NCBI RefSeq assembly: GCF_020382885.2 | Contig: NC_058506.1 | Span: 3,844,001-3,908,000 of the forward strand | Direction of reading: 5' to 3' | DNA: 64,000 nucleotides | Origin: Scatophagus argus | Lineage: Eukaryota > Chordata > Actinopteri > Scatophagidae | Part shown: one piece after another, positions 6,881 through 61,900 of the stretch | Numbering within the stretch: position 1 is the first letter of the stretch | Layout of the letters: each line of letters opens with the position of its first letter | Notes under the pieces: model-generated | Database searches by the model: none | What the model was told of the DNA's origin: nothing | What the model saw: the letters and a program-made list of their open reading frames with translations, nothing else | Position numbers and translations under genes: made by a program

Positions 6881-6975
6881 GTTACTGGGTGAATGCCTCC
6901 CTGCCATGAGAGCTGACCATCAGGTCACCAGCCCCCCCTCCTTCTGCAGTTGATGGATCAGCAGCTGGTCCAGAG

Positions 6976-13249
<6,274 letters not shown>

Positions 13250-24123: not shown

Positions 24124-26514
24124 TCACACACTGGGCTCATCTGGCAGATCTTCCAGAAGTGCAGGATTTTTCCTATAGATGTAGGCGTTAGGATTGTCAT
24201 CCATCTTCACCAGCTCGGCCAGCGACGACACACAGGGATCGTGATCGAGCAACATGGTCGGCAGGTGGGAGGATTTGCGCTGGATGCGGCAGGAACGGCG
24301 CACTGGTGTCAGAAACTTAAGATCTTTGATGCTGCCCTTTCTCTTGGATGCAGTTGTGCCGACATCATCTTCAATTGTCTTCTTGACACTGAACAAAAGA
24401 TATGTTCAAGTAAAAATACTGAATTACGTTTGAAAAATTACTTTGCGGCTAATTAATTTGTGTTTCAATAATGAAATGTGCTGGTATTGCATACGAATGT
24501 TGCTGGGCTCACCTTTGTAGGTATGGAGTGGTCTTCACACTGTACTTTACTAATGAAGCATCCTCCGTCTGTGGTGTGGTCTCAGTCACACACTCATCAC
24601 TGTGTGCCTCGTCATCGTCCGTCTCCATTTCATAACTTTCATCACTTTCTTCTTCATCTTTCACTTGCTCGACCTTCGGCTGCTTGCTGACATCTTCATT
24701 CTTCAGTTCTTCCTTTTCACATTCATCACTTGGTTCGCTGTCCTCCACTTCACCATCATTGCACACATCTGTGTCCTGTGAAAGTTCTAATGGGAACAAA
24801 AAACATTACAGGAGTGTTGGTGTGAAGTTTCTTTGTAAAGTGTGACAACAACTACAGTCAGAATAACTTATTCATCTTTAGACCAGAAATGCCAGTGGCC
24901 TGAGCAGATCAATTATTATTTTAAAGATCTGACCAAAATGCAGACGGACACAGATGAACTTACCATCATTGCATCTTGAGGGTGTTGTCATGGCCTCCAA
25001 AGCATCACAAAGGTTCACAACAATCTGTCAATATGAGAAGAGAATGTGGTTTATCAATGTCGAAGGTAATATTATTAAAACAGCAACCCTGCCCGTTTTC
25101 TTACATCCTGCACTCCATCCTGTGGATCAACAGGTGGATCTGCATCAGAGTTTTCCAGCAGATCCAGGGTGGTGTTCATAATCACTGGAGTCAGGCTGCG
25201 TGCTGACTCTGCTTCCTGTGGATCTGCACACTGAGCAGCAGCAGCCAAGTCTGGCTCGTGTGCTTGCACGCTGGGCACAGGGTTGTCTCGTGTAGCTGGC
25301 CGAGGCTGTGGTTTGAGATCAGTTACAGGTTTTACAGAGACTTTGGTTTTTAAAGGTGCTGCTGTTGTCATGGCTGGTCTCTTTAAAGTCTTGCCCTTGG
25401 AAGAAAGCCACTCTGCCAGTTTTGCTCTACATGGGGAACAAAAAAAAAATGTATTGGAGCAATTCTGATGTACAATAACACAAATGAAAATATCAAGCAT
25501 GTAAGTGATATAAATTTGTAAAAACGTTACCTTCTTTCCTCTGCAGTCTCCATGGTAAATCTGTATTGGCTTTGGCTGCTTGAAACAGAAGGTTTATTGA
25601 CCTTCTTGTCTGTCACTGGAATCTTGGGCTTTGAGGTTTGAGTCCCATTCCTCTTACTGAAAGTCACATTAGTGTTTCTGGAGCTGGTATTGCTTAGTGT
25701 TGCAGGAACGGTTCTGGCAGGAGGGTGAGCAGAGTAAAATCCAGCAGGAGGACGGCTGGTGACTGCAGGCTTGGACACCTGAGCAGGTCTGTCTAACACT
25801 GACTTAGACCTTGTTTGTGCAGGTTTTTGTGTACCATTCCCAGGAAGGTCAGCAACTGATTTGGACCTGATTTTTGACACATTTCCAACCCTCTGGCTCT
25901 CTGGTTTGGGTGCTGAAGGTTTGGGGTCTGCCTCGCCAACAGTGGCACTTGACTTCCAAATGGATCCAATCTTAGACTTGACAATCTTGCCTTTGTACAA
26001 GCCCAGAGCAGATTTTGATGATGGCACAGCAGCTGGTGGCATTGGAACTTCTGTAATCATTTTTTTGTCTTGCATAGCCTGTTCGGAGAGGAAGGCCTGG
26101 CTGTGTGTTTGCCGCTGTTTGACATCAGTAGCAGCGGCTTCTTTTCCATCTCTCTGCACAATCTTGATCTTTTTCAGAGCCTCACCAGATGTAGATCTTG
26201 TGTCCCCTTGTTTAACCTTGGCTTTAAGAGGACCATTTTTTGCCACGGTTCCCTCTTTTTTGTTGCTTTTCAGTTGAAAGGGAACAGCCGACGTTTTGTC
26301 ACTTCTGATGAAGGACTTGTTTCCATATGCCGGCTGAGCATTTTCCTTGTTTCCCTAATACAATAAAAACCATAAGACCATTAGGTTTGCTGTATTTATG
26401 ATATTAAAAACTAACAACAACCTCTGAAAAGAAGTCAATACAACAATGTGTGCATTTCAAACAACTTTAACGTACTTTTTTGAAGTTCCGTCTTGGAACT
26501 GCGACGTTGTCCAT
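24124..26514 (-). CDS. ckap2: CKAP2, cytoskeleton-associated protein 2 (spindle microtubule protein)
   Basis: Microtubule-stabilising mitotic spindle protein. Coding exons (minus): 26514-26476, 26354-25531, 25426-25105, 25024-24964, 24786-24513 and 24388-24124. The sum is 1785 nt, 594 residues plus stop; human CKAP2 is about 683. Family marks: a KEN box at residues 16-18 (APC/C degron), GLYKGKIVKSKIGSIWK (human GSYRGQIVQSKINSF), AKLAEWLSSKGKTLKRP (human RLSEWKAGKGRVLKRP), VKYSVKTTPYLQSVKK, DLKFLTPVRRS and LPTMLLDHDPCVSSLAEL. The middle is basic and low-complexity. A strongly acidic Glu/Asp tract lies just before VKYSVKTTPYLQ. The helical domain between LKRP and the acidic tract is much shorter than in human. 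CKAP2L is the alternative; the VKYSVKTTPYLQSVKK wording favours CKAP2. The gene converges on stt3a. Confidence 0.9.
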
Positions 26515-28388: not shown

Positions 28389-31300
28389 ATGCAGAATCGC
28401 TGTGCTGTGCTCAACTGTGCTAGTGGTAAATCCGACCCACAGCCCCTCTTCAGGTTTCCGCACGATCCAGAAAGGTAACTAATGCTAAGACAGATGCTAA
28501 AGCAACAGGAAGCTCTCAAGCTAACGTTACCCAGAGCAGTTTGTTTATTTGTACGATAAGAACAACTTTGGTTGAATTGCATAATTTTCGTTTCAGTAAT
28601 ATTTAGATCTAATGTACGCCTTTCGCCAAGTAGCGCATCCTCTTTCAAACATTTTATAAAATGTTTAAACTTCTTAAATTTGTCAGATCGCTGTGCTTTT
28701 ACTTTTTGCTAAATGTAACTACACACCTGGAACCAGCAATCATTAAACATTCTACAGATTGTTTCAAAGTTTTGGCAAAGTGTGCGTTGCAACATTTTAT
28801 GCTGTCTTGTCGAAAAGAAAACTATCCGGAACTGAAGGCACTTCTTCCCCCCTAGCTTAACGAAATACAGCACGATGACATCAACATCTGCATTTTTCCT
28901 GAAAAAAAAAATGTTTTGACACAGCAAAGTGCTAAGAAGATGAGTAAATACACGCAGAGGGCGATGCATCCATGCACATACATACAGACGTCATCACACA
29001 CTTATGGCTCCTCAGTAATGGTGGAGAGATTTTTTTTTCATTATTAATTTTTCTTTCCTGTTATTTCAATTACCTTCATTTGTTAGCAAGTCAGTCTGGC
29101 TTGTGTAACATAGAGCTTGTCGTAACTGTTCAGATCTAACATATACACATGTGTACATGGACCTTCAAATGTATGTTAAGTATGTGAAATATTTCCAATT
29201 TAGAAGTACATAATAAATGCACCACTAAAATGATTAGGCTTCAGCTTGACACAACTGTATTTTCATACAGTTCTGTTCTGGAAACATGTCCACACATATA
29301 GTAGCATGCAGATTTGCATATGACAGGAGAGAGGGCTAGTGGCCGAGGTGGGGGACTCGCTCTCTTATAGTTTCACCAGTGTTTTTCTGCTATGAAAAGT
29401 CAAAATATTCACTCTGAAAAAAGGTCTTTTACTCCCAGCATGAATTAAGCACCCCCACACCTCCTCCTATACTTGTTGTGCAGCATGTTGTGGAAAGGTT
29501 TGTTCAGTTAATATATCACTGAACCACAAATGAACCTTGAAGCCCGGCAGTTATCCTGACTTGTCATCATTTTGGTTTAACCATGCCTTTCAGGTCTAAG
29601 ACGTGGGTTGAAAAATGCCAGAGACAAGACCTCTTGGACAAATCACCAGACCAGTTGTACAGATACTACAGACTCTGTGGAAAACATTTTGAAACCTCTT
29701 CAATTCATAATGTAAGTTTTCAAGTTGGACATAATTTTGGACCAAATAGCAGAGGACAGTGTGACCTCAGAGTTTGAAGGACTTTTAATAAAACTGCCAA
29801 ACTCTAAGAGAAATTAATACAGCGTGTAGTAACACAAGTGACATTACGCATTCCTGATTTTTGTCACGCATGCGTACCAGATATGTGCACCTCTGATTAT
29901 AGGTTTTAATGTTCACATTAATAATACATTTGATTAAGTCTGTATGCTGTATAATGAATTTTTCTGACCTTTGTCAGGACGCTCAGAGTGCAGTGTTGAA
30001 AGATGATGCCATACCAACTATCTTTGAGGTGCAAAGCCAACCTCAAAATGGACAAGTGAAGCGCCATAAAGAAATGGTGGGTAAACAACATCTTAATTCT
30101 TTTAAATGGAGAAAAATAAGTTATAAAATTTGATTTTAGTTTTTATGTAATTGCATTTTTAATTTGACTTTTATTTTTCTAGTCCAAAGATGATGAAACT
30201 GAGAGTAAGGGGAGAAAAAGTAAGTATATCAAGACACACATTTTTTATTTGAAAGTGAAACAAAAGACTCTCACATGCTTATAATCACAAGATGAGCGTT
30301 TGATGCAGTTTTTATCTTTCAACTGTTAATGTTTCCCTTTTAGAAAGCAAAAAGTCTCAGGCACAGACACCTAAAGAAGATGCCCAGGCACTCCCAGAGG
30401 AAGAGCATTATAAAGAGTATCTTAAGTCATTGTTTGAAGTTCTTGTACTGTTTGGAGAGCAAAGCATTCCTCCGACCGGGCCTGGTGATAATAAACAGGA
30501 TGGGCTTAGGTCAAGCAACTTTCAGGCATTGTTAGAATATCGCATGAATTGTGGAGATGAAGTCCTTAAGAAGAGATACGATGTAAAGAAGGAGTGCTGC
30601 TCTTCCGCTCAGCTGAGTCACTTAATTGAGGTGTTAGAGACATGCATCCACAGTAAGCTGATGGAGGAAGTTAAACAAAATGGCTTTTTCTCACTCCTTA
30701 CCGATGACTTGGTGAAGATGTCAGGAGAATGGTACCTCCCAGTCTTTCTCCGTTATGTGGACCAGTCTAACTGCCAACAGGAGAGGTTTGTTGGGTTCTT
30801 GTCATTTGAAGGAGATGGGGATACCTTAGCAGAGAAACTTCTGTCAGAAATGACTGACAAATGGGGCTTGGACATGGAACAATGCAGAGGTCAAGCCCAC
30901 TCCTGCTCCGGGACACATTTTAGTAAAATAAAAACATTTGCTGCCAAAGTGATGGAGAGGTACCCAATGGCTGTGGTTACACTAAGATCTACTCATACAT
31001 TGAACATGTCACTGGCAAATGGCATGGCTTTGTCAGGGGTTCAGCTTGTTATGTCAACTCTGAGAAAGATTGAGTCATTCTTCAGTCAGTCGCCGTCACT
31101 GCAGTTGGAGTTGGAGCATGCAATTTCGATTTTTTTTCCAGACAAAGAGGAAAAAGCCAAGGAACTGAAAGAGATCTGTCAAACCAGCTGGACCAGACGT
31201 AATGATGTGTTTGAGGTGACAGTAGAAATTCTTGAGGCATTGCTGCTATGCGTGGACAGTGTTCATGACAATGAGGACATGAGGTGGAATGATGAAGTAA

Positions 31301-32157
31301 CACACAGTGCCTTAGAGATTTCAAAAGCACTAACTGATTTTGAGTTTGTCATATCATTGGTCGTGCTGAAAAACGTTATGACACTGACACAAGCATTTGG
31401 GAAGAATGTGCACGGGAAAGCGACAGATGTGTACTTTGCTGTAGCCAGTTTAAAAGCTGTTCTGCACTCTCTGAATGAAGTGTCTGACAACATTGATGTT
31501 TATCATGAATTCTGGAATGATGAGGCCGTTAACCTAGCTGCTGCCATGGAGGTCCCAGTTAAGGTCCCTCGATCATTCTTGAGGAAGCATCAGGCAGAAT
31601 CTGGAGCCATTCAGCCCGAGAGTTACTACAAGGACCACCTGTCTGTTCCCGTGGTGAACCATGTCATCAAAGAAATGAACGAACTCTTCTGCGAGGACCA
31701 CTTGAAGGCTCTGAGATGTCTGTCACTGGTCCCTGCTGTCATAGAGCAGCATAAGTCTGCTGAGCCTGACGAAGAGAGTGTGCAAGTGTTTAAAAATGAC
31801 ATCCCAAATGCAGGAAGCCTCTCTGCTGAGCTGCACTGCTGGTGGGTGAAATGGAGCAAAAAGGGCAAAGGAGAGATTTCACCCTCCACTCTGCTTGAAA
31901 CCCTGCAGCTGGCCGATGTGAAGTTCTTCCCAAACATGCTTGCAGTTCTGAGACTGATCGGCATCCTGCCTACCTTGGCTCTGGATGACCGCTCTGATGT
32001 AGTGTACAAGCGCTTCAAGATGTACATGGAGAACACGCCTGAAAAATTCAAATCAAAAAGTCTTGCTTTTCTGAACATAAACGATGATGTTTGCTATGAT
32101 CTGGACACCACAGTGGAGCTCTACATGAAGATGTACCCAGACAGAGAGGAGTCATGA
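28389..32157 (+). CDS. thap12: THAP domain-containing protein 12 (P58IPK-repressor / PRKRIR family), normal single-module form
   Basis: Human THAP12 (p52rIPK, PRKRIR) binds P58IPK and so relieves inhibition of the kinase PKR. The family is a THAP finger joined to a domesticated hAT-like transposase body. Exons: 28389-28474, 29594-29711, 29978-30076, 30183-30219 and 30344-32157, totalling 2154 nt or 717 residues (human about 761). THAP finger at residues 1 to about 65 with zinc ligands C5, C10, C57, H60, then the AIPTIF box and a short basic linker. The last exon carries the body: EYLKSLFEVLVLFGEQSIP, FFSLLTDDLVKM, WGLDMEQCRGQA, LVVLKNV, YYKDHLSVPVV, LRCLSLVPA and FFPNMLAVLRL, aligning with human THAP12 throughout. 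Exon 4 is 37 nt, phase 0 in and phase 1 out. It is followed in tandem by the larger relative at 34243. Confidence 0.95.
28475..29593 (+). other. thap12 intron 1
   Basis: 1.1 kb, non-coding. It opens with GCTAA-type words and TAACGTTA at 28522-28529. No RNA or repeat was recognised. Confidence 0.6.
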
Positions 32158-34242: not shown

Positions 34243-35762
34243 ATGAGTGACTGCTGCGCCGCAGCGAACTGTGACTATCAACAAGGGGAATCTGAAAACT
34301 CTACTCCGCTTTTCAACTTTCCTCTGGATCCGGAGCGGTAAGTGGTCTTATTTCATTGATATGTGGGTCAAATTAGCCACTTAGCATGCAAAATGAATGT
34401 GTTAGCTATCCTATCCACTGTTAGCTTAACATCATGTTGGCTAACAGTGACACAACTCTGTGGAAAATGGCGCAGACTAACGTTACTCATGAAAGAAAAG
34501 TCCGTGTGAAATACTATCCATTCGCTCCTTTAGGCTTGGATACAGGTTCTGAATTGTAATATTGTTTCTACGCTTTATCATATATGTTCATCCATTCCAC
34601 AAACCAAGGGAAATCATAGTTTAAAACTTTTTATGTTGTAAGCTATTTTCAATCGCTATCGTTTCACGACACTTGCTGTCTCGATAGCCCGGTAACACTA
34701 CTAAGACTGATGTTAGTTTAGCGAAATTGAGTTCTCTTCCATTGCAAATGCTACTCGGCCTCACTGAGACTACCGTTACCAAATTGCGTGAATCACATCG
34801 TGTTTTTGCAGTGTAGTGCGAGGCGAGCAATATAAACTTATTTTCAATACTTTTAACAGGTGATGTCTGACGCTAACAGTAGTCTAGCGCCTCCTTGTAT
34901 CCTGCTGCTACATCTCGCTTGCCCCGATGTTTTCACTTTGGGATTTCTGTAGTATTGTGCAATAGTTCTCTTAGTTTTTTCTTGCTAAAAAACAAATCCC
35001 TCAGGATCGTAATTAAATGACAGATGCAGTTCAGTTAATGTCCAAGTTAGAGGAAAGATTAATAGATCACAAAATATAAAAATATTTAATGACCAGTCCT
35101 CCCATGAGTTTGTCTTTCCCCCGCTCCCACCTAAAATGCTGTGTTAAATTGAGAGAAATTAAATGACCTTTGCTTGTGAGAAAATACCAGCCCTAATTCT
35201 GTGCGTGCACCAATAGAATGCATTTACAGAGAGGGAGGGAAAGTATGATGGAAGATGGAATAGAAGCAAAGAGCTCAGGTACATTGGTGAAGGTTTTAGT
35301 CAGCAATCAGTTGCAACTTTATTTAAAAAAAACAGAGGCAGCATTGTGTTATTAATTCAGCTAAATACCATAGACCTGTATCAGTGAGTTGTATCAGTAG
35401 ATATACCAAATCCACCTAGTTGTTGTAGACATGATCTCTTGTTACATAACTGCTCCATGCACATGCATCAGAGTCATTGCTCACAAAGTTGTATATGGAT
35501 GTTATGTTTATTGAAAATGTACTTGCATTCACTCAATGATAAAATCTTTCAATACAGCAGTTGGCAGTTTTAAAGGTTGCTTCAGTTGCCAGCTGAAGCA
35601 GTTAGCCTCTACAGTTGTTAGGGCCTACAATGACATAGTGTTTCTCTGTCTGCACTTGTAATAACAGCATTAAATTCCTAGTTGTTTTTCATACAGTAAG
35701 CATGTTGAACTTTCTCAGATGAGAAAAGGATGTCACCTAAATATTGAATAAATATATGTATA

Positions 35763-35797
<35 letters not shown>

Positions 35798-38700
35798 GAA
35801 GTTTTTGTTCCTCTACTGTATCATACCTAAGTATGTACACGAAGAAAGTAGTGCAGCTCAAGCTGTCCTCTCAGTTGCTGTCTATAATGTACCATGTAGA
35901 TCTTATAATACTGATGCCCATAAAAAGAGAAACCATGACTCTGCACCACCATGCTTCATTTATAAGTGTGTGCTGTGACACATTTTACCTTAATCAAAAA
36001 ATTGCAGTTCCATTTAGAGTAAAATAGACCATAAAGCAGGGTATGTTTTAGGGCGTGGCTACACTGTGACTGACAAATCGCTACTTCAGCATGCCCTCGG
36101 ATTTTCAGTCGGATTTAATCAGGGTAGAGTCATAGCAATGTGCACCCTCTTGTCCAAATATGGTCACTTCTGGTTCCAAAAATGAGATGGTTACGTACAT
36201 AATGCCAAATTTGAGGTTTAAAAACCATAGTCCACAGATTGGTGGTTGGCAGTGAGCTTACACCTGTTGAAACTGAAACCATCCTTGACCAGCTGTTGGT
36301 GTTTATCCCTGTTTGTCGGGTCATTATTCAGTTTATTTTTATTATTCATTATAATAATTTAATTGAATTATTCAAATTTAAATACAGAATATTAATTCAC
36401 AGAATCATTTAGCTAAGGCCTGTTTTAATCATTAGGTCTGTGGTTGGGAGCCTAATAATTTATCCTTTTGTCCTCTATTTTTCAGCTGCAAACAATGGTT
36501 GACCAGTTGTTGTCGTCAAGATTTGGCATCAGAACCTCCCGAGCGGTTGCATACACTGTACAGACTTTGTGCAAAGCATTTCGAGCCTTCTATGATCTCT
36601 CATCAGGTAAGATGCAAACCTGTTTGCCGTTATAATTAGAAACCCATCTGTACAATCAGTCAGTGTAATGCAGTCCAATAAAATCTCACCAAAAACTACA
36701 TATTCAAAAAATCCCAAGCAAAGCAGCAAAGACTGAACCTTCAAAGCTACAGTACCAAATGGAGATGTGACTCAATTAACAGATCAACAACATTCAAATA
36801 TGCAGGAAGAGACGCAGTTGTTTGCTGAGTTTCATTACGACCCTCGAACGAGAAACAACAATCGGCACCCTTTCTGTAGAATCATTGATGCCCCAAACGT
36901 CCCAAACACTGAAAAATAATGAGAAAATAGGAAAATACGGGTAGATAGAGTCTCTGTGGATCGGGACGCTTCTAGTGGGTCATAATTGAAAACTAACACT
37001 GTCAAATTGCCAATAATGGATTTATTACTTAACATTTGTGTACGCAGTGATGTCCAGTGGTGTTATATATTGTGTGTATAGTTAGACTCCTGAATTCCAA
37101 TATAATATGGTGTGAGCTTGTTGGCAGGAAATTCCAGATTTCATATTAACTATAAGGGAAAAACATAAAAGTGTGATCTACTGCTTTTTCATTTTTAGAG
37201 CGCCTCCAGTTGTGTCTTAAGGGAAGATGCTGTTCCAACAATATTTGACCGAACAATGCCTGTGAATAATCAGTCTGCCTGCAACAGGAAACGAGCTAGA
37301 GATCCTGTAAGTGTTGCATTCAATGTTTAAAATTATCTTACTTTTTCATCAGACTTTAAAACAGGGAAAAAAATGCAAATCTGTAATTATCCTTTTCACT
37401 TACCTAGCTGGAAGAGGACCCTACTTCTGTGAAGAAAACAAAAGGTACAGTTCAGTTCACTCTCCTCATTCAAGGCCCTTCAGTTTTAATCTGTCTTAAA
37501 ATGTATGAGCTATTGTTGTAAATATTACTTCATTCACTCATCTCAACCTTTGTCATTTTTTTCTTTCTCCCATCAGAAAATACAACAACAGCAGAAGTCC
37601 CTGAAGGGATGAGAGAAGTATCTGGAGAGAACAGTGCAACATTTGAACTGCGAGAAGATAACCAAACTCAAGAGGATATAGCCAGGTCCAAAGCAAAAGA
37701 GACTCTAAAGGTCTATTTTAAGGAAATCCTGGCACTGACTGGATTCAGTATCAATGGTGCAAACATCAACACTGAAGAACCAATTGGAGGTGCAAGAGGT
37801 CAGCAGGCTCTTAATCGTATATGTGTGGAGAAAATCGACAAGAAGGAAGTCCTCCAGTTCAGTGAGGACCTTATGCGGGAAGAGATCCAAAACAGCCTCA
37901 GACTTGCACGATTCTTCTCCATTCTGCTGCAGGATGTGACGAATATAGAGGGAAAGGAGCAGATCCCAGTTTTCATCAGGTCTGTCACAGTAGATGGGTT
38001 TCCACAAAAGCACCTCATTGGGTTCTTACCATGCGACATGGATGCAGAGAATCTGTTTTACATGCTTCTCTCAGAGTTGCGAAACAAGTGGGGGCTGAGG
38101 ATGGAGCACTGCAGAGGACTGACTTATGTGGTCACAGGCACTATGTGTCAGAAAATGCGAGACCTTACATGCAGGATTCTGCAGGAGTTTCCACAAGTAG
38201 TTTTGTCACCGAGTGATCCATATGCTTTCAACATATGGATTATTCGTTGCATGCCTGTGCCTTCCATTCAAAATGTTGCAGACACAGTAGAGGAGGTGGC
38301 CTCGTTACTCAGGAGAACACCAGAGCTGTGGAAAAGACTGGAAGGAAAGATCCAGATGACATACGGGCATGTAAAAGGGGAAGCAGAAAGGATTAAGACA
38401 GCCGTCAGTGAGAACTGGGAATATGGCACTGATGCCTTCCAGACCATGTTAGACATTCTGGAGCCGTTCCTGAACTGCATCAATGAGATGATTTCAAAGG
38501 TAGATGAAGATACTGCTGAGCAAATGGCCAAGCTCAAGCCAGTTTTGAAGAATTTCAATTTCATCATCACACTTGTTGTTCTGAAAAACACTCTCTGTTG
38601 TGTGAGCATACTCAACTCAAGTCTCAGGGGAATAATTAGCATCAGCAGTACCTTGCAGTACACAATTTCCAATGCCTTAAAGCTGGTAAGCAAATACCAA

Positions 38701-41700
38701 CAGGAGCTTGCAATATTCCACAGGAAGTGGTTTTCAGATGCAGTTGGCAGAGCAAAGAAGCTGGGAGTCGAGGTCATTAAACCAGAGATGGACCAAGGAG
38801 ACACAACTGAAACACCACTGGAGGACTTTTACAGAGAAAGTCTTAGTCGGCCTATCTTGCAGTATCTTGTTGCAGAGGTGAAGAGAGTATTTAGCACAGA
38901 GATGGTGAGGATTCTCCGATGGCTCTCATTAGTGCCATCGTACATGGCAGACCACAATTTCAGCATTCGCAGGGACAAAGTAGCAGATGCTAACTTGAAC
39001 AACCTTGCGAGGCCTGACACATTCTACGAAGAGCTTGGTTCTTGGGAAGTGAAGTGGAGGCATGCAAGCAAACGGAGGATCCTACCAACCACAGTGTTTG
39101 CTACACTCAAGATTCCTGATATTGGGTTTTACCCGAATGTGCAGAGCTTGTTGAGGGTGTTGGGCACTGTTCCATGTGTAAATGCAGAGGCCGATGTGTA
39201 TGGTCAATACCACATGGTACTGGAGCGGTGCCACTCCTACCTGGGAGCCACACCAGAGGACCAAAGAAAATGCAGCAAGGCGTATATCTTCGTAAACCAA
39301 GATGTGCATTTCAATGTCGAACAAATGGTGGAGTCATATGTTCAGAAACATCCAGACATCCTGCAGTTGCTGCAAATTGTGAGTTCATAAGCAGAGTGCT
39401 ACTGAAATTTTATTGCCCTCTTTAGTGATTGATTAAAAAAAGTTACAAGTAGTTAAAATCATATTATTCTGTGTATGTGTTACAGGATGACGACTCAAAG
39501 GAGAAGCCTCCCCAAGGTGAGATAATTTTGAAATTGTTTACCATTTCAGCATGCTGCAATTTTAGTTCATCAAACAGCTATTCCTTCTGATTAATACAAA
39601 ATACACAATTTAAGAGACTGTTGTTCCTGAAATAGAACTTTAGACACAAGAATGGGCCAATAAAAAAGTATTCATCAACGCATTGATGAATACTTTTGAA
39701 AAAAGAGTTTGGAATTAAATTACTATTGGTCTTGCAAGGAAATATTTGAAAATGTAACTTGAATATTTGTGTTAAATTGCAATGTTTAATATGCACAGTT
39801 ACTAATTTGCTGTAAAAATTTCAGTTTACAAGATAATTCCCAAATCTCATTTCAGTGGCATCCCACGGGAACCATGCTGAGAAGGACACTGAAGAAGAAT
39901 TAGACCTCCTTAACTTAGAGATGGATGCTGAAAGGCTTGTGGAAATGAAGTGTGCAGAGACTGATAGAGAAGCTCTTAAATCTGCCTTGCAGGCTGCAGT
40001 GACTGCTGCATACAGTAGTCAAAGCAGGCAGCATAGTGACACTTCTGCTCAGGATGGAGAAGTTGAGTATGTCACGAAGTCTGAAATGAAAGAAGTTCTC
40101 ACTGTGTGTGAGAATGCTGTCCGGGAGGGAATCCTCATGGAAGTGGGGAGTTCGTTCTTTTCATTGTTCATTGACCGTGTTGTGAAGCTGGGGGAGAAAG
40201 ACTATCTTCCACTTTTCTTGAGGTTTGTGGACAGTTTTGATGTCATGCGACTGGAGTTGATGGGATTCCTTGAGGCGGATCTTGATTGTGATGCGATGGT
40301 ACAGCGTCTCATGGAAATAGTAACAGTCAAGTGGCACCTTGACTTGAATAACTGCAGAGGCCAAGCATACCTGGGGTCTGGAGATGTTTCTTATAAGCTG
40401 AAAGCCTTTGCCTGCAAAGTCCAGGAGAAGTATCCTCTTGCCATAAGCACACACTGCTCTTCTTACTCTTTCAACACATGGTGGTCAAAATCCATCCCAG
40501 TGCCCGCTATTAAGAGAGCCTTGGATACATTTGAAGATGTCTTGATGTTTTTTGGCAGCAGCACTGCTCTACTAAAACAGCTAGACCATGTAATAGCCTT
40601 TGGTCTGAGAGAGAGTTATGAAAAAGTGCAAGAGTTTCAGGGGAAGTTCTGTGCCCTTTGGCAAGAGAAGCATGATTCTTATGAGGTGTTTGTTCAGATG
40701 CTGGAGACCCTGGTTGAATGTCTGGAGAAAATTAAAAACAACCCACAAAGATGGAAAGCCTTTGTTTCCGAACAAGCTGCGGCACTGCTCCGCAAGGTAA
40801 TGGAATTCGATTTCATCATTGCCATGGTGGTCTTGAAGAATGCATCCTCCTTTACCAGAGAACTGAGTGCAGGTCTCCAGAAGGACCACTTCAGTGCTGC
40901 ATCCCAGCTTTGCCAAATAAGTGGTATTGTGGCCACTCTGAACAGAGTAAAAACAAATATGAAAGTGTTTCACCAGAACTGGTTTGATGAGGCTTGTGCC
41001 ATGGCACAGAGTCTTAGAGTGCAGATTGAACTGCCTGAAAGCTCATTGCCAAGAGATGGCATGATGAAGCCAGTCAATTTTTACAAAGATGGCTTAAGTG
41101 TGCCTCTAGTAGATAACCTCATCAATGCTGTGAAGGATCATTTTTCAGAGGACCACAAAGAAGCTCTCAACTTCCTCTCCCTAGTTCCATGTTCAGTCAC
41201 AGTGAGTTACATGTTTGAGAGCTTGAAATCAAAGCCTCCTCTCTACAGCAGTGATCTTCCTGATGCTGACAACTTCTTCACAGAGCTGTGCTGTTGGAGG
41301 GTGACGTGGAAGACCAAAGTTGCATCCGTCACCATACCAGGCACAATATTTCACACATTGCGTCTCCCACTCATGCAGTACTTTGGGAACATCAACACAC
41401 TCCTTAGGATTATGTCTGTGCTCCCCAGCACAGCGCTGGAGGACTGCGGTGTTGTAATGCGCCACAAGAAGTTTCAGGACTACCTTAGAAATACAAATCC
41501 CAAAGACAGGTCCCCGTGCTTGGCTATGCTGCAAGTGAGCACGGATTTCAGCAGAGACCTGGACCACATGGTGACCCAGTGTTTGAAGGTTACTCCACAA
41601 GCCTTGGAGGGTATCTGTCTGGTACGCATATTTATTCTTTCATACAAATGACTGTTACAGTTATAGTTAATTGACATTTTTTTCTCCATGTTTCATTATT

Positions 41701-44700
41701 TATATGAATGTCAGACTAATTTTTATTTATCTGGATATATTTGCAGGACAAGGAATCTAAAAGTTTCATCAAAAACTCTGACAATAATATGGATGGTATG
41801 CTTGTTTTTTCATTACATTTATTAATGAAACCTAAGAGATAATTTCTAACTTAGATTCCAAAAAAGTTGGGACGATGTGTAAAATATGAATTAAAAACAG
41901 AATGCTATGCCAATTTGCAGATTCTTTTAGACCTATATTTACTTGAACATTCATCCTGATGTTTTTGAAATTGGGATTGTTTTTTTTGTTTTGTTTTGTT
42001 TTGTTTTTTTGCCATAATTTGAATGTTGTTTCTTATTTTTTCTCGTCTCTGTGATTATATTTAGTTGACTGTGTCAAAGAAGAGACTGAAGAGCCTGACA
42101 TTCAGCTGTCTCCTCACAAGATTGAGGACCAAGACATGAAACCAGCAGATGAGAATGGGCACGCAGGAGATAATCGTCAAAGCTTGGCGACGGTATTCAG
42201 GCTGGCTGCACTACTGGGTAAAAAGAACAGCAGTTTCTCTGACCTCTCAGAAGAGGACAGAGAGCTTTTCATCCAGGAGCTCTGCATGTGCCACTGGTTT
42301 GGAAGTCAGAGCAAGTGCACACCTTGTATAGGTGATGATGAAATGGTGAACCTCTTCATAAATGGAATCAGAGATGTCATACTCAAGGAAATACACGAAT
42401 CGCCGTTCTTCTCACTCATCACAGACAAACCTGTGAAAATTGCTGACAAGACACACATACCTGTTTTTGTCAGGTATGTTGGAGAATCTACTCCAAAAGT
42501 AGAACTCATAGGTTTCTTACCCTTTGATGAAAGCTGTCATGTCGATACACAAGCAAATAACCTTGCAAAGATTCTCACTGAAGACTGGGGCTTACCAATG
42601 TCTCAGTGTCGTGGACAAGCGTTCATGCACTTGGGCTCAGGTTATCAAAGCCTGAAGAAAATGTCTTTGGATTTTCTCAAGAGTTATCCTCTTTCTGTTG
42701 TGACACCCAGTGAGTCTTGCGGTCTTGCCCATTGGCTGGCAGGAAGTGTACCTTGCCCCTCAGTGGCAAAAATGCTGGATATCACAGAAGATCTGCTGCT
42801 TTTCTTTGATGAATCTCCTTGTCTGGAGGGACAACTTGCTCAAGCTGTTGACGGGCTTTTGAATATGCCGAGAGAGGCCCTGGAAGAAATCCCAGAAACA
42901 TGTTTTTCAAGGTGGAAAAAAAGAGAGGACTTCTTTGACATTCTCGTTGACACGTTAGAAGGCATTCTCAGCTGCCTAGACGCTGTTAGCTCTAGTGCCA
43001 CAGGTTCCAAGTCAATGCATGCACAAGTTCTCTCTACTGCTCTGAGAAATATGGATTTCATTGTCACCCTCGTGATTTTGAAGAATGCTTGTGCTCCTCT
43101 TCGTAACTGTAGCACTGTCTTCCGCTGTGGAAACCCTGCTGATATTCTCTGTGAAGTGGAAAAAATCCCCTCTATCATAGAGACTCTAAACAAGCTGTTA
43201 GAAAATGTGAACACTGTTCATTCTACTTGGTTTGAGCAGGCGTTCCAGTTAGCAACCAAGGTAGCTCCTGAACAGGTGTGCTTCTCAGAGGAAGCCAACA
43301 ACTATGAATCTCCAGAGATATATTACAGGGAAAATTTGAGTGTTCCTCTCCTCAAAAGTCTTGTCGATGAAATGAAGTACAGCTTCTCAGACAGCCACTT
43401 AAAGGCACTGTCAATTCTGTCTTTGCTGCCTTCTTGCAATCCCATTCTGTCAGAGTCCACAGACAGGCCATTCAGCCTCTACCTTACAGATCTTATGGAA
43501 TCTGAAGCGGCCGAGCATGATATCAACGCCTGGGCCACTGTCTGGAGAGAAAAATACCAGGATGTTGCTCCTCCAACATCTATTGCTGAAACACTCATCC
43601 ATCAAGAGTCAAAAAGCCACCCAACTGTTACCTTACTGCTGAGGCTAGTAGCTGTCCTGCCTAGTGTCAGTATGGAGTGTGACCTGATGAAGACCACTCT
43701 GAATTCCATGAGAGATCTGTTGAAAAACACTGTATGCAAAGGCAGCAGAATGGATCGTGTGATGCTCCTCTCTCACAATACAACATTGCAGAGACTACCG
43801 GAGGTCATTGAGAAGTGTGTGGAAGTTGATCCAGAGAGTAGCCCTTGTCTTTCCCAGGTAAACTTAAAGTTGTTTTAAAATAGTTTTTGTTTAATCACCA
43901 CGTTGGAGTTGCACCATTTTTACTGCCATGTAATCGGTTCCATGTATTTTTACAGCTGATGGGAACTTTACAAAGACAGAAGTTGGACAGGGGTAAGTGC
44001 ATTCGTGGCAACTTGATGCAAATATCACTGTGTCTTTAATTGTCATGATGAGTAAACAAAAACCAAACTAATTTTGGAGCAGATAGTCGTGTATGCATGG
44101 CATTAACGTTTATTTTTATTCTTTAAATCAGGAAACACTGAAGTAAAACCAACTGGATTGCATTCCTCCAGCGAAGCAGAGAAGCCCACCGATGGAGGGG
44201 TGAAATCAGCTGAAGGACAGAGAAAAGCAGTGTCTTTCTATGAGCCACAACTTCGTGAACAAATCCTCAAGGAACTCTGGGACTCTCAGTTCTTTACTGT
44301 TATAACTGAGCAAGCTGTTGAAATTGAGGGTGAGCACTATGTGCCGTTGTGCATCAGATACTTAAACAAAGAGGACATCCAGTGTGAGGAAACACTGGCT
44401 TTCATCCCTTTTGGTGACGACCCAGTGGTCCTTGCAGATGCTATTGAAACTGCCCTGTCTGAGAAGTGGGGGCTCAACATGGAGTATTGTAGAGGACAGG
44501 CCTTGTTGAGTTTTGGCAAAGTAGGAGCTCAGATGAGGGCTGTAAGTTTAGCTATAGCTAAGAAATATCCCCAGGCCATAAGAACTGTCAGCTCTGCTTT
44601 GTCTCTTAATGTATGGCTGGCCAGATCCTCTCCTGTTGAAGAAGCAGCAGATGGAGCAGTTCTCATAGGCAAAATATTTCACTGGCTCACAGAGGATGCA

Positions 44701-45630
44701 GAACGCCAGCACAAACTGGAAGACATGATCATTCATGTGTTCCAGCATGATGAAGGAAAGGGCAACGAGCTGAGGGACAGACTCATCAAAAACTGGGAGA
44801 AGAGTCATGACATGCACGAGATGATGGTGGAGACTTTAGAAGCTGTCATGCTCTGTTTAAATGAGCTGAAAGGAGAGGGAAGTACTTCAAACCAGCAGCA
44901 AGCATCACAGTTCTTCTATGCCATCAGAAACTTTGAGTTCATCTTATCCACAGTGGTGCAGAAGAACGTCTTGAGTCTAACTAAAATGCTAAGTCAGTCA
45001 CTTCAGGGTAAACCCTTAGATATGTTACTTGCTGTGAATAATTTGCCTGATCTGAAAGCATCCCTCAGTAAACTGAAGGATGATGTTGACAGCCATCACA
45101 AGGCCTGGTTCGAGGAAGCTGTTGCTCTGGCTTCTAAACTCCATGTGACAATGTTGCATTCAGTGCTCCTGGAGCCATTGAGTGAGTTTTGCAAAGAATC
45201 AGTAAGTGTGAAGGTTATAGAGCACTCAATAGCAGAAATTGATGACCTCTTCACTGAAAAGGTGTTGGATACCTTGAGGTGTCTGGAGATTGTGCCTTAC
45301 GCAATGTCCAAAGTAGAAACCAGCATTCTTAGTGGTCTTGTTTTCCGCCTGTACAAGGAGGACTTGCCAGATCAGGTCTCTCTCCACTCTGAGATGAAAT
45401 CATGGAAGGAGAAATGGTTGGATCCCCTGGCAGGTTATCTCCCAACCACTGTGCTCGATACACTCAAGACATCACAGATAAGAAGTTTTAGTAACATTGA
45501 AACTCTCCTCAGACTCCAGGTCATCTTGCCATTTTCTAGGAGGGAGAGCAACTTCAGGCAGGGAAAACGGAGTTTACAGGAGTTTATACAGCAGGAAAAA
45601 CGATCCCTCGCTGAGCTACATCCTCTTTGA
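34243..45630 (+). CDS. giant THAP12-type protein: one THAP finger plus four tandem hAT-like body modules
   Basis: Tandem relative of thap12. Exons: 34243-34337, 36486-36606, 37199-37306, 37408-37444, 37577-39378, 39486-39516, 39856-41621, 41747-41795, 42065-43857, 43956-43992 and 44132-45630. Every junction is GT-AG and in frame, and the sum is 7338 nt, about 2445 residues, three times human THAP12. The THAP finger has ligands C5, C10, C60, H63 and an AVPTIF box. Then come four body modules (about residues 121-721, 732-1320, 1337-1934 and 1947-2445) joined by 10-17-residue linkers, each linker its own small exon. Each module repeats F-F-S-x-x-x-D/E, CRG (38110, 40353, 42607, 44488), V(V/I)xKN, a (Y/F)(Y/C)(K/R)(D/E) S-V/R-P block and a (S/E)(L/I)(V/L)P block. 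Modules look only distantly alike, so the duplication is old. Function is unknown; a role near P58IPK/PKR is inference from family only. Confidence 0.88.
34338..36485 (+). other. intron 1 of the giant THAP12-type gene, 2.1 kb
   Basis: Non-coding. The first 160 bases are dense in TTAGC/GCTAA words with TAACGTTA at 34478-34485. A (TA)n run lies at 35766-35793. No gene recognised. Confidence 0.6.
35766..35793. repeat. (TA)n microsatellite
   Basis: A run of alternating TA in intron 1 of the giant THAP12-type gene. Confidence 0.9.
37577..39378 (+). repeat. THAP12 body module R1 (exon 5)
   Basis: 1802 nt, phase 1 in and phase 0 out. Full length at both ends: it opens with the helical ETLKVYFKEILALTG region like thap12 and ends with VEQMVESYVQKHP. 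CRG reads CRGLTY at 38110. The ancestral stop is replaced by the donor ATT|GTGAGT. Unspliced reading stops four codons later, and an ATTAAA lies at 39432-39437. Confidence 0.9.
39664..39697. repeat. perfect 15-bp inverted repeat (hairpin), 4-nt loop
   Basis: AAAAGTATTCATCAA, loop CGCA, then TTGATGAATACTTTT. It lies in the intron between the first linker exon (39486-39516) and module R2. AT-rich flanks. Confidence 0.95.
39856..41621 (+). repeat. THAP12 body module R2 (exon 7)
   Basis: 1766 nt, phase 1 in and phase 0 out, preceded by a 31-nt linker exon at 39486-39516. It keeps FFSLFIDRVVKLG, CRGQAY at 40353, VVLKNA, FYKDGLSVPLV and FLSLVPC. The N-terminal part is acidic and unlike that of R1. 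It ends CTG|GTACGC; unspliced reading stops about 10 codons on. Confidence 0.9.
41980..42010. repeat. (TTTTG)n T-rich simple repeat
   Basis: Repeated TTTTG units within the intron just before module R3; it could act as a long polypyrimidine-like tract. Confidence 0.85.
42065..43857 (+). repeat. THAP12 body module R3 (exon 9)
   Basis: 1793 nt, phase 1 in and phase 0 out, preceded by a 49-nt linker exon at 41747-41795. It keeps FFSLITDKPVKIA, WGLPMSQCRGQAF with CRG at 42607, VILKNA, YYRENLSVPLL and SLLPS. It ends CAG|GTAAAC; unspliced reading stops after five codons. Confidence 0.9.
44132..45630 (+). repeat. THAP12 body module R4 (last exon), shortened at both ends
   Basis: 1499 nt, preceded by a 37-nt linker exon at 43956-43992. 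CRG (44488) lies only about 356 nt from the exon start, against about 500-540 nt in thap12, R1, R2 and R3, so the N-terminal helical region is missing. The C-terminus stops at 45628-45630, about 30 residues before the usual end. The next frame stays open to 45763. Confidence 0.85.
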
Positions 45631-45896
45631 GTTGAAAGGTCTTCCATCATGGCTAGCAGATGTGAGCAGTGCGTTTGAGATGTCACCGTCACCATACTTA
45701 CCAACTAATGTCTCAACTCTAATTGAGGTCCCAAGGCCTGAACTCAATATTTGTGTACATTAATGATCTAAATTCTTTGAGATTTCCTTTTGTTGTTATC
45801 CTGCAAACTAAGCCCTGTGTTATGTTTTGTTTTTTTATTTCGTAGTTTGTACAGTTGTACTACCCAATGGGACCAAAGTCTTGGCAAAAACGAGTA

Positions 45897-45916
45897 AATA
45901 AATATATATAAATAAA
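45897..45916 (+). terminator. poly(A) signals of the giant THAP12-type gene
   Basis: Two AATAAA hexamers, 45897-45902 and 45911-45916, about 270 nt after the stop. A further AATAAA is at 46246-46251. Confidence 0.6.
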
Positions 45917-46368
45917 AATGAAAATCATTGCTCCACTGACGGTTATCAAAGCTTGTGTGCCTTGATGCAAAACTAATAATTCATCCCATGTATCATGATA
46001 ATACAGATGTTGAAAAATGTCCCATTGGCGTTGACTGACTTCTGTACAGCTGTCATGAATTCATTATAATTATGAAATTGCACCCTTACCTTCCCTGGGC
46101 ACAAATAGAAATTGTTAGTTCCATCGTGTCTTCTGATGATTTCCCACGTTTCCTGTCTCTTTGCAGGGATGAATTTGCTGTATACGTATCTTTGAAAGAA
46201 TGTTTCCTTAATAGGAAAACCTTCATATATATTTGTCAGAAAAGTAATAAAACGCTTTAAAAACATGTTTTGCCTTTCGTTTTTGTCATTTCTTTCCCCG
46301 AGTTATATTTGTAGGCTTGGAATGTTTTGGTGTTATGTGATGTCTGTAGTCACGTCTGAAAGGCAACG

Positions 46369-55987: not shown

Positions 55988-58900
55988 ATGAGGAGTAGCT
56001 CTCATGTCCTGCCTCTTGGTGTGCTCACGGCTCTGCTGCTGTCTCAGGTCTGCTCTGGCATCAAATGGCTGTAAGTATTCTGCCGCCATCCCAGTCTTTA
56101 GGCCTGTCACTATCTTTACACTGCTTTAACAATGTCAAAACAGATGACGTCATGAAGCTGCACAGTATTTTGTTGTGCTTTGTGGCATATTTCAGTATTT
56201 TACAAAGTGGTGGGCCCATGGCAGCTTTGAAAAGGGCCCCAGCATTCCTCAAGTTGCTCCTGATCGGGAGGGAGGCTGTGTGTTCTGTACATGTGTATCT
56301 GATGAAGGGGACAGAAGATTAGCTGGCAGTTCTTCAGGTCATGAAGGGGAAACCTCTTTCTTTTATTAACTTGCGGCTCCGGTAAAAGGAGACAGGCTGC
56401 ATCGTTCACTCTGAAGCTTTCAGATGAAATGTACCCTCTGTTGTATAATAAGAACATAAGTATAGAAAATAAGATAGAGATGACGCGGCGTCATGGCGGC
56501 GCAGACATTGTCAGCGATGTCGCTGCTTACTGTGTGTAGTCTACTTAGGCCTCAATCAGCGTAAAAATACTGTCGTGGAAGGAAACTGATGCCATACATG
56601 TTGACACAAATGCTGATTGCTCGAACTGAGCACCACATTGTTTTCATGGTAAGTAAAAGTAAACAATAATTTTCACAATAATTTTAGAAAGTCTGTAAAA
56701 ATTCCCAAGTTGCTATTTTTTTGAATTTATTTATGTTTCAATTCAAGTTTTGGATGGTTTTGTTTGGCATTCTTATAAACCCTTTGAGGCTTTCTCCACA
56801 TTTTGTGTGTTCTGTTGTATATTTGAAGAGTTCATTTGTGAAAACAGATAAAAGCTATTCTTAAAATGAATAAACCAACACTAGTTTGAATGATCCCCAT
56901 GAGTGCAGAAAAAAACACAATTTAAGAAAAATAAATCAAAATAAAGATATCTGGTTTTACAATTGAACCTTTCATTTCTCCATCTGTAAAAACACAGCTT
57001 TCTGCATCGGCTGTACCAAAAATATCCATGGCTTCTTATCAGAACGAGTGGTTGTAATGCTCACAGCAGGAGAATTTAAGCAGATGTGCCCATGAGAGCT
57101 GGGATGGCATGTGCTAAATCTAAGCGAGAAATCTTACAGTCTTGATAAAGCACAGCGGTGCAATGCAAAACAGATGCGGCTGTAAACACCTGTGAGTGCC
57201 GGGTTACCACGAGCCCAGTGGAGTCACAGCTTATCATTGGGCACAGAGTGGCGGCCCCTCGGCCCTTAATGCAAAACAGGCCACGCTGCTGCCTGGTTCT
57301 CACGAACTCTCAGCAGAGTGCAACACACAGAAAGCAGAGATCAGAGCTGACCTGCTCTGCCTGTGGTTTCTCTATTAAATTAATCCCCAATAAGTTTAAA
57401 TTGTTTAAATCAAATGTGTGCACCCTTTAATAGTCTGTAAATAGATGATTCCTGTCAAACTGAGGCCACAGAGGATCGTGCATCCTGTGCTGGAAAATGC
57501 AAATGGTGAGGGTTGTGTGTAGTTTTTCATCTGACTGTGGATCAGAATTTAGTGTGGCTTTTATATTTTTTGGCATATCTTGATGCCTCTCCTGTGCTTT
57601 AACAAAAGAGAATCCGTGTGCCAAGAACGTGTCACGTATATTTTTTATGAATCCACAGCTGACTCTTCTTCGGGATTTTTGTGTGATAAGATGGCTCTTT
57701 TGTGCAGCATGTGCCAAAATATTTTCCTGCCTTAAGCATTATCTTTTTGGACTTTTCAATTGTCTGTTTGAAGCTGATGTGTATCAGAGGTTTAAAATGT
57801 GTGTACGCAAGACCCTCAGATCGCTAACACAGCACTGTAACTAAAACACCCAGCATGCTTTGTTATTTCCATGAACGTGACAATTTCACAACTCTCAGAA
57901 CAAAAAACGTGATTAAGCAATCATTCCATTGTTGTCAACACCACTGCAATTAAGAGAATATTTATTGTTGAACGCAAACTGACCAGAAATTTTTGTCTGT
58001 TTACCCCCAACTTCATGCAGAGCGCTATCACACACTCCTGCAACTTTACACATTAACCAGACTCAACACTGTAAGCTGCTGCCTGGCATGGTGTCTTCCC
58101 AAGCTCAGCTGTGTCGCAGCAACCTGGAGCTCATGCAGACCATTATCCAAGCTGCCCGCGAAGTCAAGAAAACATGCCAGAAGACCTTTGCTGATATGCG
58201 CTGGAACTGCTCCTCTATTGACATCCCCGCCGATGTCCCGAAGTATCGGCCAGACCTCGACAGAGGTAATGGTTATAACCAGTTTGGAATGACAGCGTGG
58301 ATAATGTCTGATTATGTTTCTGGTTATGCTTGGCATTTAGTGAATCTCTAAAACCAAGGTCATTGAATGCCACATGTGTTGCCATTTAGTTTATAGTGAC
58401 TGGTGAAGTGATCCTCGGCCCTTTTAATGCTGTTGGTACATTGTATATGTGTGTATTAATGTAGTGGCTATCTCTACAGCTAATACAGAAATATGTCCTT
58501 TTCAAAAGTTAGTTTGGTTTTCAGGTGAAATGTTGCTTCACATGTTCACCTTTTTGTTGGCACCTAATTATTCCATTATGCACTCATGAGTTTTCTTCAG
58601 AGACTTGTACTGAAGCAGTCTGACTTTGCTGTTTGTATGGCCCAGAGGACCTTGAGTCAGTTACTGGGTTGTGGGTGGGGGAGCTGTGCAGCACACCCCA
58701 CAAAGGACATGGCTGCCATTTGCCAAATGAAAAGCCTGTGCCAAACAGGAAATGGCTCATCTCTGCCCAGGGATGGCTTTGATCTAACCAGTCCACAGTC
58801 ATATATGATTTCTTCCCTTATTTCCAATTGCTTTCAACATGTGTGCTTTCCGTGTGTGCCAATCACCGCCAATCACAGCAGTACTCACTCTGCATGGCAG

Positions 58901-61900
58901 CATGATTAGTAATGGACTGCGCTTGATAGTTTTCGTTTTTCATTCCTTTTTTTCCCTGAGAATGAAGAAAGCTAGAGAAATAAGATAGCAGAGAAGTTGA
59001 TTACACAGACAAAACGGTTTGAGAACTTTCTACACGCTTTAGCATGCATTATGATAAATGATAGCTGACCTGTCCAAAAAGCATGAAATCTTACAGCTTC
59101 TGAGAGAGTGCACCCATCCAAATGATCATAAACAGGCTAATCTCACTAACTTTGAACGAAATCAGCCTAAATATTTACATACTGGACTGGTAGGTCCCCA
59201 TATTGAGTAAGAATCATGTTTTAAATTTCTGAATCTACAGGTGTTTTTCTATTAATGAGTGCTCTAGAAAAATGATTTGTAACTATTTCAGTAATGGAGT
59301 AGTTGTTCCTGCTTTGTCCTATGTGATGGTAAATTTGAGTTTTAGGGTGTTAGTCAGACAAAACAAGACGTCTGAAGATGTCACTTTTGGGAAACTTAGA
59401 AAATTGTGATAAAAAACCTAATAGTTGCAGCCCTAATAATTTCTAGAGATGAATGTAAGTTATACTTGTGTTAACACTGAACCCTAGAGAAAATGATCAT
59501 TGAATGACTTTGATGTCTGCTTTTTCAGTTTGCAGTTTGTCAGGTCCTAAAGAACTTGCGTCTTCATTTAATTCCTATACCATTTCCTTTTTTTTATGTG
59601 TTTCGACAGGAACCAGAGAGGCTGCATTTGTCTACGCCCTGTCCGCAGCAACCATCAGTCACACCATAGCACGGGCGTGCACTTCTGGAGATTTGCGTCT
59701 GTGCTCCTGTGGTCCTATTCCTGGTCAGATCCTAGAGCCTGGCTATCGCTGGGGTGGCTGCGCTGACAACCTGCAGTACGGTTTGATCATGGGAACCAAG
59801 TTCTCTGATGCTCCCATGAAGATGAAGCGCGCAGGCTCCCATGCCAACAAACTGATGCACCTGCACAACAGCGAAGTTGGGAGACAAGTAAGCTACATGT
59901 TCAAATATTTATTCAAGATGTTGTGTAAAATGTTCTTAAAACTAGACATTGCAGTTTAAATTGTAAATGTATTTGTATAAGAGTTGTATGACTGTCCTGT
60001 ACAAACAGTGAGCACTATCTAACCTCCATGTCCACTGTGCTCTTGTCCAGGTATTGAGAGAGGCATTGGTCATGAAATGTAAATGTCACGGTGTGTCTGG
60101 CTCCTGCTCCATAAGGACCTGTTGGAAAGGCCTGCAAGATCTGAGGGAGATCGCCATGGACCTGAAGACCAAATACCTCTCTGCCACCAAAGTGGTTCAT
60201 CGGCCCATGGGGACGCGTAAGCAGCTGGTACCAAAAGACATTGACATCAGGCCGGTGAGAGAGAACGAACTGGTCTACCTGCAGAGCTCCCCAGACTTCT
60301 GTACCAAGAATGAGAAACAGGGCTCTGTTGGCACACAGGACAGGTGAGACTACCACGTCACATAATTGTGTTTGACTGTCTGAGGAAGGGTGGGACATTG
60401 GGTGCTAATGAGCTTTTTGCTGTTATTAGCATGACTCATATCACCAACCCACACAGCTGACAAATAGGAAATTATCAGTCCTGAAATGTCTGCTCATCCA
60501 GGATGTTGACTCTGGTAAAGTGCTGTCCTGCCTGGTGGTACCGTTTAGTTTGCAAGGCTGCCTGATAACAACCAGCGCCCCCTGAGAGCACTCTGTCTGT
60601 GGCCTGTCTAAGCATGTGTTACTGAAAAGGCCACTGTGACTAGAGTCCTTGTCCCATTATCTGAAAGTGACTAATGCAGTTATTTTTAGGACTGAGTGCA
60701 CTCCAGCTGATATCGATTGGAGAGGTCTACACAAATGGGGAAATAGTTTATGGTTCCTCAAAGAAAAAGGTTAATTTACACCACTGGGCTCCAGTGTTTT
60801 AGTTGGGGCAGTGTTTAAGATAAGAAAATCTTTACTTGTCCCACAAAATGGAAATTGCCTTACTGCTGCTGGCTAGCAGGCAGCAAGAAGCCCATTTGTC
60901 TGAGGGTCTAACTCAGGCTGCAATCTGACTAAATAATGTCCAAGACATAAGGTACAAATATGCAGCACTATCTTCCAAGTTAATTGAATATCCCAGTTTT
61001 CCTAGATATGTTGCAGAGAAAGACAGATCACATCTCAGGCTTGATTATTAAGTTTTGAAATGCATGCAGAAAGCATTTTTAGGATCATTAGTGAGGTTGC
61101 TCAAGTTTCTTTCTTAACACAAATCTAATATGATTCCACCGGTGTTATCCCACTGACCTTTGTGTCAATGCCAGCAGCAAGCAGTTCTGGCTGGTTGTTT
61201 AAACCACTGAGGATAAAAAAGCTCCACAAAATGACACGTGATGTTATTGTATGTTATAAATGTCATACCTCATATGACTGTGATATCATGTGTTCTCAGC
61301 CATAGGCCACTTTACTGATAAGCAGAAAACATGCTTTATGTCAAGGACACTCATGTGCCCAATGCCCAATGTCTGCAGCCAGCCACACACAGTCTGCAAC
61401 ATTAGTGCTTTGTGCCAAATCATGAGGCACGGCTTTGCTGCCATTGCTTGAGCATGTTATGCTGATGCCTGTGTATGAGTATCTGAGATTTTAGATGTGT
61501 TGTATTGATTTTTCCTGTGTGTGCCTAGGCTGATTGTATCAGTAGAACTCTCAAGCCTTCACACATCATAACACTCCATCACCTTGTCACAATATATCGT
61601 GATTTGCTTTTGATTCATGGCCACTTGAGGATAGGTTTTTACAGACTTTGCTCTTGAATTGATGTTGCTGCTGTCTGCCTTGTTAGCTCTGACCCAGTCA
61701 CAAGACAGAGACGAAAGCAGTAAATACTCTTTCTAGAGAATAACGAGACAGTCTGGGACAGGGAAAGTCAATTTTAGCAACTGTTCCTAATGGATTAAGT
61801 GTGATCACTGATGGAAAAAAAGTGTGAAGACTTGCTAAAGAAGCTCATGCTTTGGTCTAAAATTACATTACTGTGCCTCTGCTTAAACCAGCAGATGTGA

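Follow-up and report, generated by a model that had tools for sequence, protein, structure and literature searches.

How may a gene come to carry several transposase-derived bodies behind a single DNA-binding finger? This question is raised by a locus of Scatophagus argus lying within C14:3844001-3908000 (64,000 nucleotides, called the window below), which was analysed together with the genome, searched over 570.7 Mb in 48 contigs. To our knowledge, a domesticated transposase that has become a transcription factor normally retains a single body and assembles by self-association. A sequence-only reading of the window had proposed here a gene of eleven exons with GT-AG junctions, coding for about 2445 residues in 7338 nt, and all these figures were reproduced when the frame was rebuilt: the gene at positions 34243-45630 of the + strand (the array gene) has eleven exons with GT-AG at all ten introns, which join into one open frame of 7338 nt and 2445 aa free of internal stops. 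Its parts, in window positions, are the following.

34243..34337, + strand: exon 1, with the ATG and the first part of the THAP finger; GTAAGT donor, end phase 2
36486..36606, + strand: exon 2, THAP finger, with the Pfam THAP match
37199..37306, + strand: exon 3, end of the finger, with AVPTIF
37408..37444, + strand: exon 4, short exon of module 1, 37 nt, phase 0 to 1
37577..39378, + strand: exon 5, large exon of module 1 (M1, residues 109-721)
39486..39516, + strand: exon 6, short exon of module 2, 31 nt, phase 0 to 1
39856..41621, + strand: exon 7, large exon of module 2 (M2, residues 722-1320)
41747..41795, + strand: exon 8, short exon of module 3, 49 nt, phase 0 to 1
42065..43857, + strand: exon 9, large exon of module 3 (M3, residues 1321-1934)
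43956..43992, + strand: exon 10, short exon of module 4, 37 nt, phase 0 to 1
44132..45630, + strand: exon 11, large terminal exon of module 4 with the stop codon (M4, residues 1935-2445)
45631..46251, + strand: 3' region of the gene, with AATAAA at 45897, 45911 and 46246

From 1152 GT/AG combinations tried near these coordinates, eight leave the frame open. Among those listed, the open variants are a few codons apart, the changes falling at the boundaries of exon 8 and at the junction of exons 3 and 4, and exon 8 is likewise open in a 43-nt version with the acceptor before 41753. Some donors depart from the optimal consensus, namely GTACGC after exon 7 and GTAAAC after exon 9. The chance of each large exon staying open was estimated as 1e-13 to 1e-16, and decay of the gene is made very unlikely by the intact frames of all four modules.

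An ordinary THAP12 gene of 717 residues had been claimed next door, and it was indeed found upstream of the array on the same strand.

28389..32157, + strand: one-body THAP12 of C14, 717 aa, with exons 28389-28474, 29594-29711, 29978-30076, 30183-30219 and 30344-32157

For this five-exon gene ten open boundary variants of 713-717 aa were obtained. The genome contains a second THAP12 on C5 (L039, C5:18208000-18217999, complement of 6670-9806), a protein of 753 aa encoded by five exons with the same start phases, the body of which is 48% identical to that of C14 THAP12. No array was found beside it, since the whole array protein, searched by tblastn against 30 kb around the C5 gene (L039-L041), matched that gene only. 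Other parts of the window flank the C14 pair. Downstream, at 57983-59959 of the + strand, two frames have Pfam wnt matches (E 2e-11 and 3e-25); this sequence, as we presume, resembles WNT11, which would fit a conserved THAP12-WNT11 neighbourhood. Upstream of THAP12, at 25075-26354, there are long minus-strand frames, which gave no Pfam match at E up to 0.01 and which, we assume, resemble CKAP2.

Comparison with C14 THAP12 clarifies the nature of the large exons. The statement that each of them reads as a THAP12 body with the CRG, VVLKN-like, SVP-like and LVP-like blocks in the same order was borne out by the alignment, with some variation in the blocks themselves: SRP stands for SVP in M1, VILKN and LLP are present in M3, and VVQKN, VSVK and IVP in M4. 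When the four large exons were aligned to each other and to THAP12, as the same reading had suggested, all pairs proved to be homologous far above shuffled sequences. In Smith-Waterman comparisons of ten pairs (C14 THAP12 body and four modules) the scores were 76-152 SD above 100 shuffles each, with z of 89-152 for the modules against the C14 body; blastp of the modules against the same body within the five-sequence set gave E of 2e-62 to 3e-95 over 446-521 aligned columns. Identity between modules is 24-28%. Thirty-five columns are invariant in the two THAP12s and four modules, and 23 of these 35 are also shared with one or both of two hAT transposases from the genome, which are considered below. 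The last module is the shortest, 511 residues against 599-614 in M1-M3, that is 88-103 fewer. It is reduced at both ends: at the N-terminus 45-65 fewer residues precede the FF block, and the chain stops 27 residues before the aligned ends of M1-M3 (window 45560-45630), so that a C-terminal stretch is missing from the last body.

The organization of the exons indicates what was multiplied. An ordinary THAP12 body in this genome consists of a 37-nt exon (phase 0 to 1) and a large exon, which starts in phase 1 and ends at the stop codon; the lengths of exons 4 and 5 are 37/1814 nt on C14 and 37/1907 nt on C5. In the array gene the same pair occurs four times (37/1802, 31/1766, 49/1793 and 37/1499 nt), each time with phases 0-1 and 1-0 and with start phases matching those of the THAP12 exons, while the ends of M1, M2 and M3 fall within a few residues of the aligned C14 THAP12 end. 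Because the pairs repeat with matching phases, the array looks like a tandem amplification of the THAP12 exon 4-5 pair. The C2CH finger pattern (C-x4-C...C-x2-H) occurs only once in the joined product, at its N-terminus. Thus the suggestion that a THAP12-type body has been multiplied behind one finger stands, and the multiplied unit can be specified as THAP12 exons 4 and 5.

The finger itself lies within residues 1-108 and is recognized by Pfam THAP (PF05485) at residues 5-88 with E 4.3e-17; AVPTIF, a motif of THAP fingers, is found at residue 83. It is closer to the finger of C14 THAP12 (52%) than to that of C5 THAP12 (46%), and the lengths of exons 2 and 3 (121 and 108) are equal to those of C5 THAP12 (121 and 108) as against 118 and 99 in the C14 neighbour. 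A bipartite NLS-like match spans residues 103-120 across the exon 3/4 junction, and the same pattern has no match in C14 THAP12. Over the whole genome the Pfam THAP model was registered at 65 places, 23 of them with internal stop codons. This search missed the split fingers of the window, and therefore undercounts THAP genes whose fingers are split.

A search of the genome with the THAP12 body gave 17 matches. Six of them are the two THAP12s and the four modules, and the other 11 are weaker (E 1e-18 to 9e-4); with M3 and M4 as queries there were ten and nine matches, none of which was a further module. The weaker matches on C8, C16 and C3 (12.9 Mb) were read as protein. Pfam identifies those on C8 and C3 as hAT transposases. 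The proteins of C16 and C8 are the same, the C6 copy is the same as the C8 copy in DNA, and a C22 fragment resembles the C3 one. Beyond this genome, 30 stretches of viral contigs and 67 of prokaryote genomes fitted a pattern, and tblastn confirmed none of them. The C6, C8 and C16 loci (L028, C6:24396047-24400729; L029, C8:22398819-22403501; L030, C16:5610208-5614890) represent three copies of one hAT transposon; compared over 16 windows of 250 bases, they come to 100% identity (rounded) in every one. Such identity points to very recent movement. A stop-to-stop frame of 721 codons is present in L029 and L030, and in L029 D, D and E are in place and both DUF4371 and Dimer_Tnp_hAT score over the cut-off.

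The bodies had also been called domesticated hAT transposase bodies, and this claim was sustained in part. The modules do align along most of the body with two hAT transposases of the same genome (L029/L030 and L031), sharing with them the QAYDG/CRGQAYDNG block, a Trp and the C-terminal LPV block; the Trp, situated after the insertion block, is kept in eight rows of eight (two THAP12s, four modules, two hATs). Module identity to the two hATs is 14-20%, compared with 25-32% to the C14 THAP12 body. The features that would be expected of a transposase are weaker or missing. DUF4371 bit scores are 14.1 for M1, 27.5 for M2 and 31.2 for C14 THAP12, all below the gathering cut-off of 32.1, with M3 and M4 unlisted, and Dimer_Tnp_hAT had no match at E up to 1 in the four modules or the C14 THAP12 body. 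Both comparison hATs (L029, L031), taken as a control, are over the cut-off for the two families. A profile of the five bodies run against solved structures likewise gave no chain at E up to 1.

To find the catalytic positions, the sequences were aligned with L029 and L031; each of these two hATs has D, D and E in the columns that we take to be those of the hAT catalytic triad. The first Asp is kept in C14 THAP12, M2 and M3, with G in C5 THAP12, Q in M1 and E in M4. The second Asp is absent from six sequences of six (S in C14, K in C5, and V, L, M and L in M1-M4), and so is the Glu (D in C14, N in C5, and D, C, D and N in M1-M4). The latter loss is the weaker of the two because the Glu column belongs to a gapped part of the alignment. 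An active transposase was thereby made unlikely, as both residues are missing in each module and in the two THAP12s. The modules are probably catalytically dead, and since these two residues are lacking in all four of them, the array protein is probably a scaffold rather than an enzyme.

The order of events was approached with trees of eight rows (two THAP12s, four modules and two hATs as outgroup), for which alignments without the THAP finger were used; the two hATs entered them without their first 120 and 150 residues. For the LG+G4 tree, columns filled in fewer than six of the eight rows were dropped, leaving 563; the mixture-model tree had its own alignment and column filter. In the best trees of both kinds the modules stay outside the C14/C5 THAP12 pair, which has bootstrap values of 90 (LG+G4) and 92 (mixture). 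Grouping of the modules with C5 was rejected (p-AU 0.007 and 0.039, respectively), and grouping with C14 was not (0.127 and 0.073). Monophyly of the modules relative to the hAT outgroup has bootstrap 72 (SH-aLRT 86.5) in LG+G4 and 76 (76) in the mixture analysis, and with the outgroup removed the branch that separates both THAP12s from the modules receives 100 (99.9) under LG+G4. Because long branches and the hAT outgroup pull the modules to this position and the bootstrap for their monophyly is low, their placement outside the THAP12 pair is weak evidence. The module branches measure 0.87-1.39 substitutions per site as compared with 0.45-0.49 for each THAP12, and those between modules only 0.12-0.19. 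Judged from these lengths, the modules would have multiplied within a short span long ago and since then changed more than THAP12; branches about two to three times longer than those of THAP12 could mean relaxed constraint. The C5/C14 pair is perhaps, as we assume, a duplicate from the teleost genome duplication, and if so, the array is roughly as old or older, and it should be widespread among teleosts.

Other explanations of the same anatomy differ considerably in their probability. The most serious, though in our estimate unlikely, is that the locus yields mainly shorter proteins, consisting of the finger with one module or terminated early, and the four-module chain is rare. Since each short and large exon pair of modules 1-3 begins and ends in phase 0, splicing can leave out a whole module without loss of frame; isoforms carrying fewer bodies are therefore possible, and shorter ones could dominate. 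Reading through the donors of exons 5, 7 and 9 would meet in-frame stops after 9, 27 and 18 nt, and poly(A)-like hexamers are present at 39432, 39659, 39714 and 41890. However, early in-frame stops are common in AT-rich introns, the four hexamers observed in the six inter-module introns are near the chance level (3.0 expected), and ten introns of ten have GT-AG junctions. That the large exons are separate genes, each with its own promoter, is much less probable. A single large exon does encode most of a body, but the spacers between consecutive large exons are merely 477, 443 and 274 bp with the short exon included, the short exons share their phases and the sole finger pattern is N-terminal. 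CpG o/e, which is 0.88 where THAP12 starts and 0.58 where the array does, amounts to 0.18, 0.39 and 0.63 in the three spacers. This also speaks against separate promoters, although the argument is weak because the third spacer is not below the array start.

Still smaller is the probability that the modules stem from separate hAT insertions or represent a relic in decay. Transposons with a related body are present in the same genome, and module monophyly with the hAT outgroup has the modest bootstrap values given above, but the modules are nearer to C14 THAP12 than to these hATs and share the exon 4-5 structure of THAP12, and their frames remain intact despite the long branches. As to duplication of the exons by assembly error, its probability is negligible: the modules are too strongly diverged, more than 70% of aligned residues differing between them, and a DNA search of the genome with module 1 listed one place.

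The array gene is thus best read, on the evidence of exon structure and homology, as a multi-body, single-finger THAP12 paralogue. Its likeness to THAP12 (THAP0, PRKRIR, DAP4) includes one N-terminal THAP finger, body homology, the five-exon plan in exons 1-5 (finger on three exons, a 37-nt exon of phase 0-1 and a large body exon) and the adjacent locus. C5 THAP12 has the same exon start phases and equal lengths of exons 2 and 3, but one body rather than four. In comparison with both THAP12s of the same genome, the array has four bodies instead of one, the extra exons 6-11 and a shortened last module; because four modules are joined in frame and the single body typical of THAP12 is not what it has, the gene was classed as a multi-body paralogue and not as THAP12 itself. 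As far as DNA can tell, this structure is real and unusual, and it may already carry an automatic database annotation. A multi-body THAP12 gene was not found in titles and abstract openings of the open-access literature among the matches listed, which mostly leaves subscription papers outside, and no paper joining THAP12 with teleosts was found there. No multi-body case appears in the accessible part of a paper on transposon-derived transcription factors (PMC10027918).

One can assume that a single explanation covers these data: one gene with one THAP finger and four diverged, probably dead hAT-type bodies, produced by duplication of exons 4-5 and encoding a nuclear scaffold. We consider this reasonably probable, though by no means assured. 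As the exon anatomy suggests, with in-frame stops lying shortly past the donors of exons 5, 7 and 9, a splice donor would have arisen next to the stop codon in what was then the last exon, and the unit intron-short exon-intron-large exon of a THAP12 copy would then have been repeatedly duplicated in tandem. The protein would be a nuclear single-finger multi-body scaffold offering four body surfaces per chain, so that body contacts made between subunits in THAP12 or in a hAT transposase would sit on one chain. The accessible texts on related proteins give some context. Human THAP0 (THAP12) is reported to homodimerise via residues 1-488 (PMC6402169, in the portion available), and PRKRIR is catalogued as a hAT-derived gene with 4 coding introns (available part of PMC3257199). 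In the available part of PMC13404843, human THAP12 is described as nuclear, having an internal bipartite NLS, binding promoters and activating complex I assembly genes including NDUFAF3, NDUFAF4 and BOLA3. The hAT transposase Hermes is a tetramer of dimers according to the accessible section of PMC10368747, and this octamer may serve as a model for several hAT bodies working as one assembly. Compared by description only, Hermes self-assembles with one BED finger per body, whereas in the array the bodies are on one chain with one finger.

In the scaffold that we propose, the bodies might pair with each other or with THAP12, altering the number of fingers per complex at THAP12-type promoters; alternatively, the array protein might compete with THAP12 at such promoters, and the diverged modules might bind different partners. 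A bolder and quite tentative version, to which we would give only a small chance, is that of an ancient fish gene in which a self-assembling transposase-derived factor became a single-chain tetramer that sets the finger-to-body ratio of THAP12 complexes, tuning or opposing THAP12 at promoters of mitochondrial complex I genes, with in-frame skipping providing forms of one to four bodies.

The divergence of the modules predicts an old gene that is present in many related species. With four bodies tethered to one finger, it would offer a direct test of whether the retained transposase body matters for oligomerisation. If the proposed history is true, it would reveal a route from a transposon gene to a large modular scaffold via amplification of a phase-matched exon pair.
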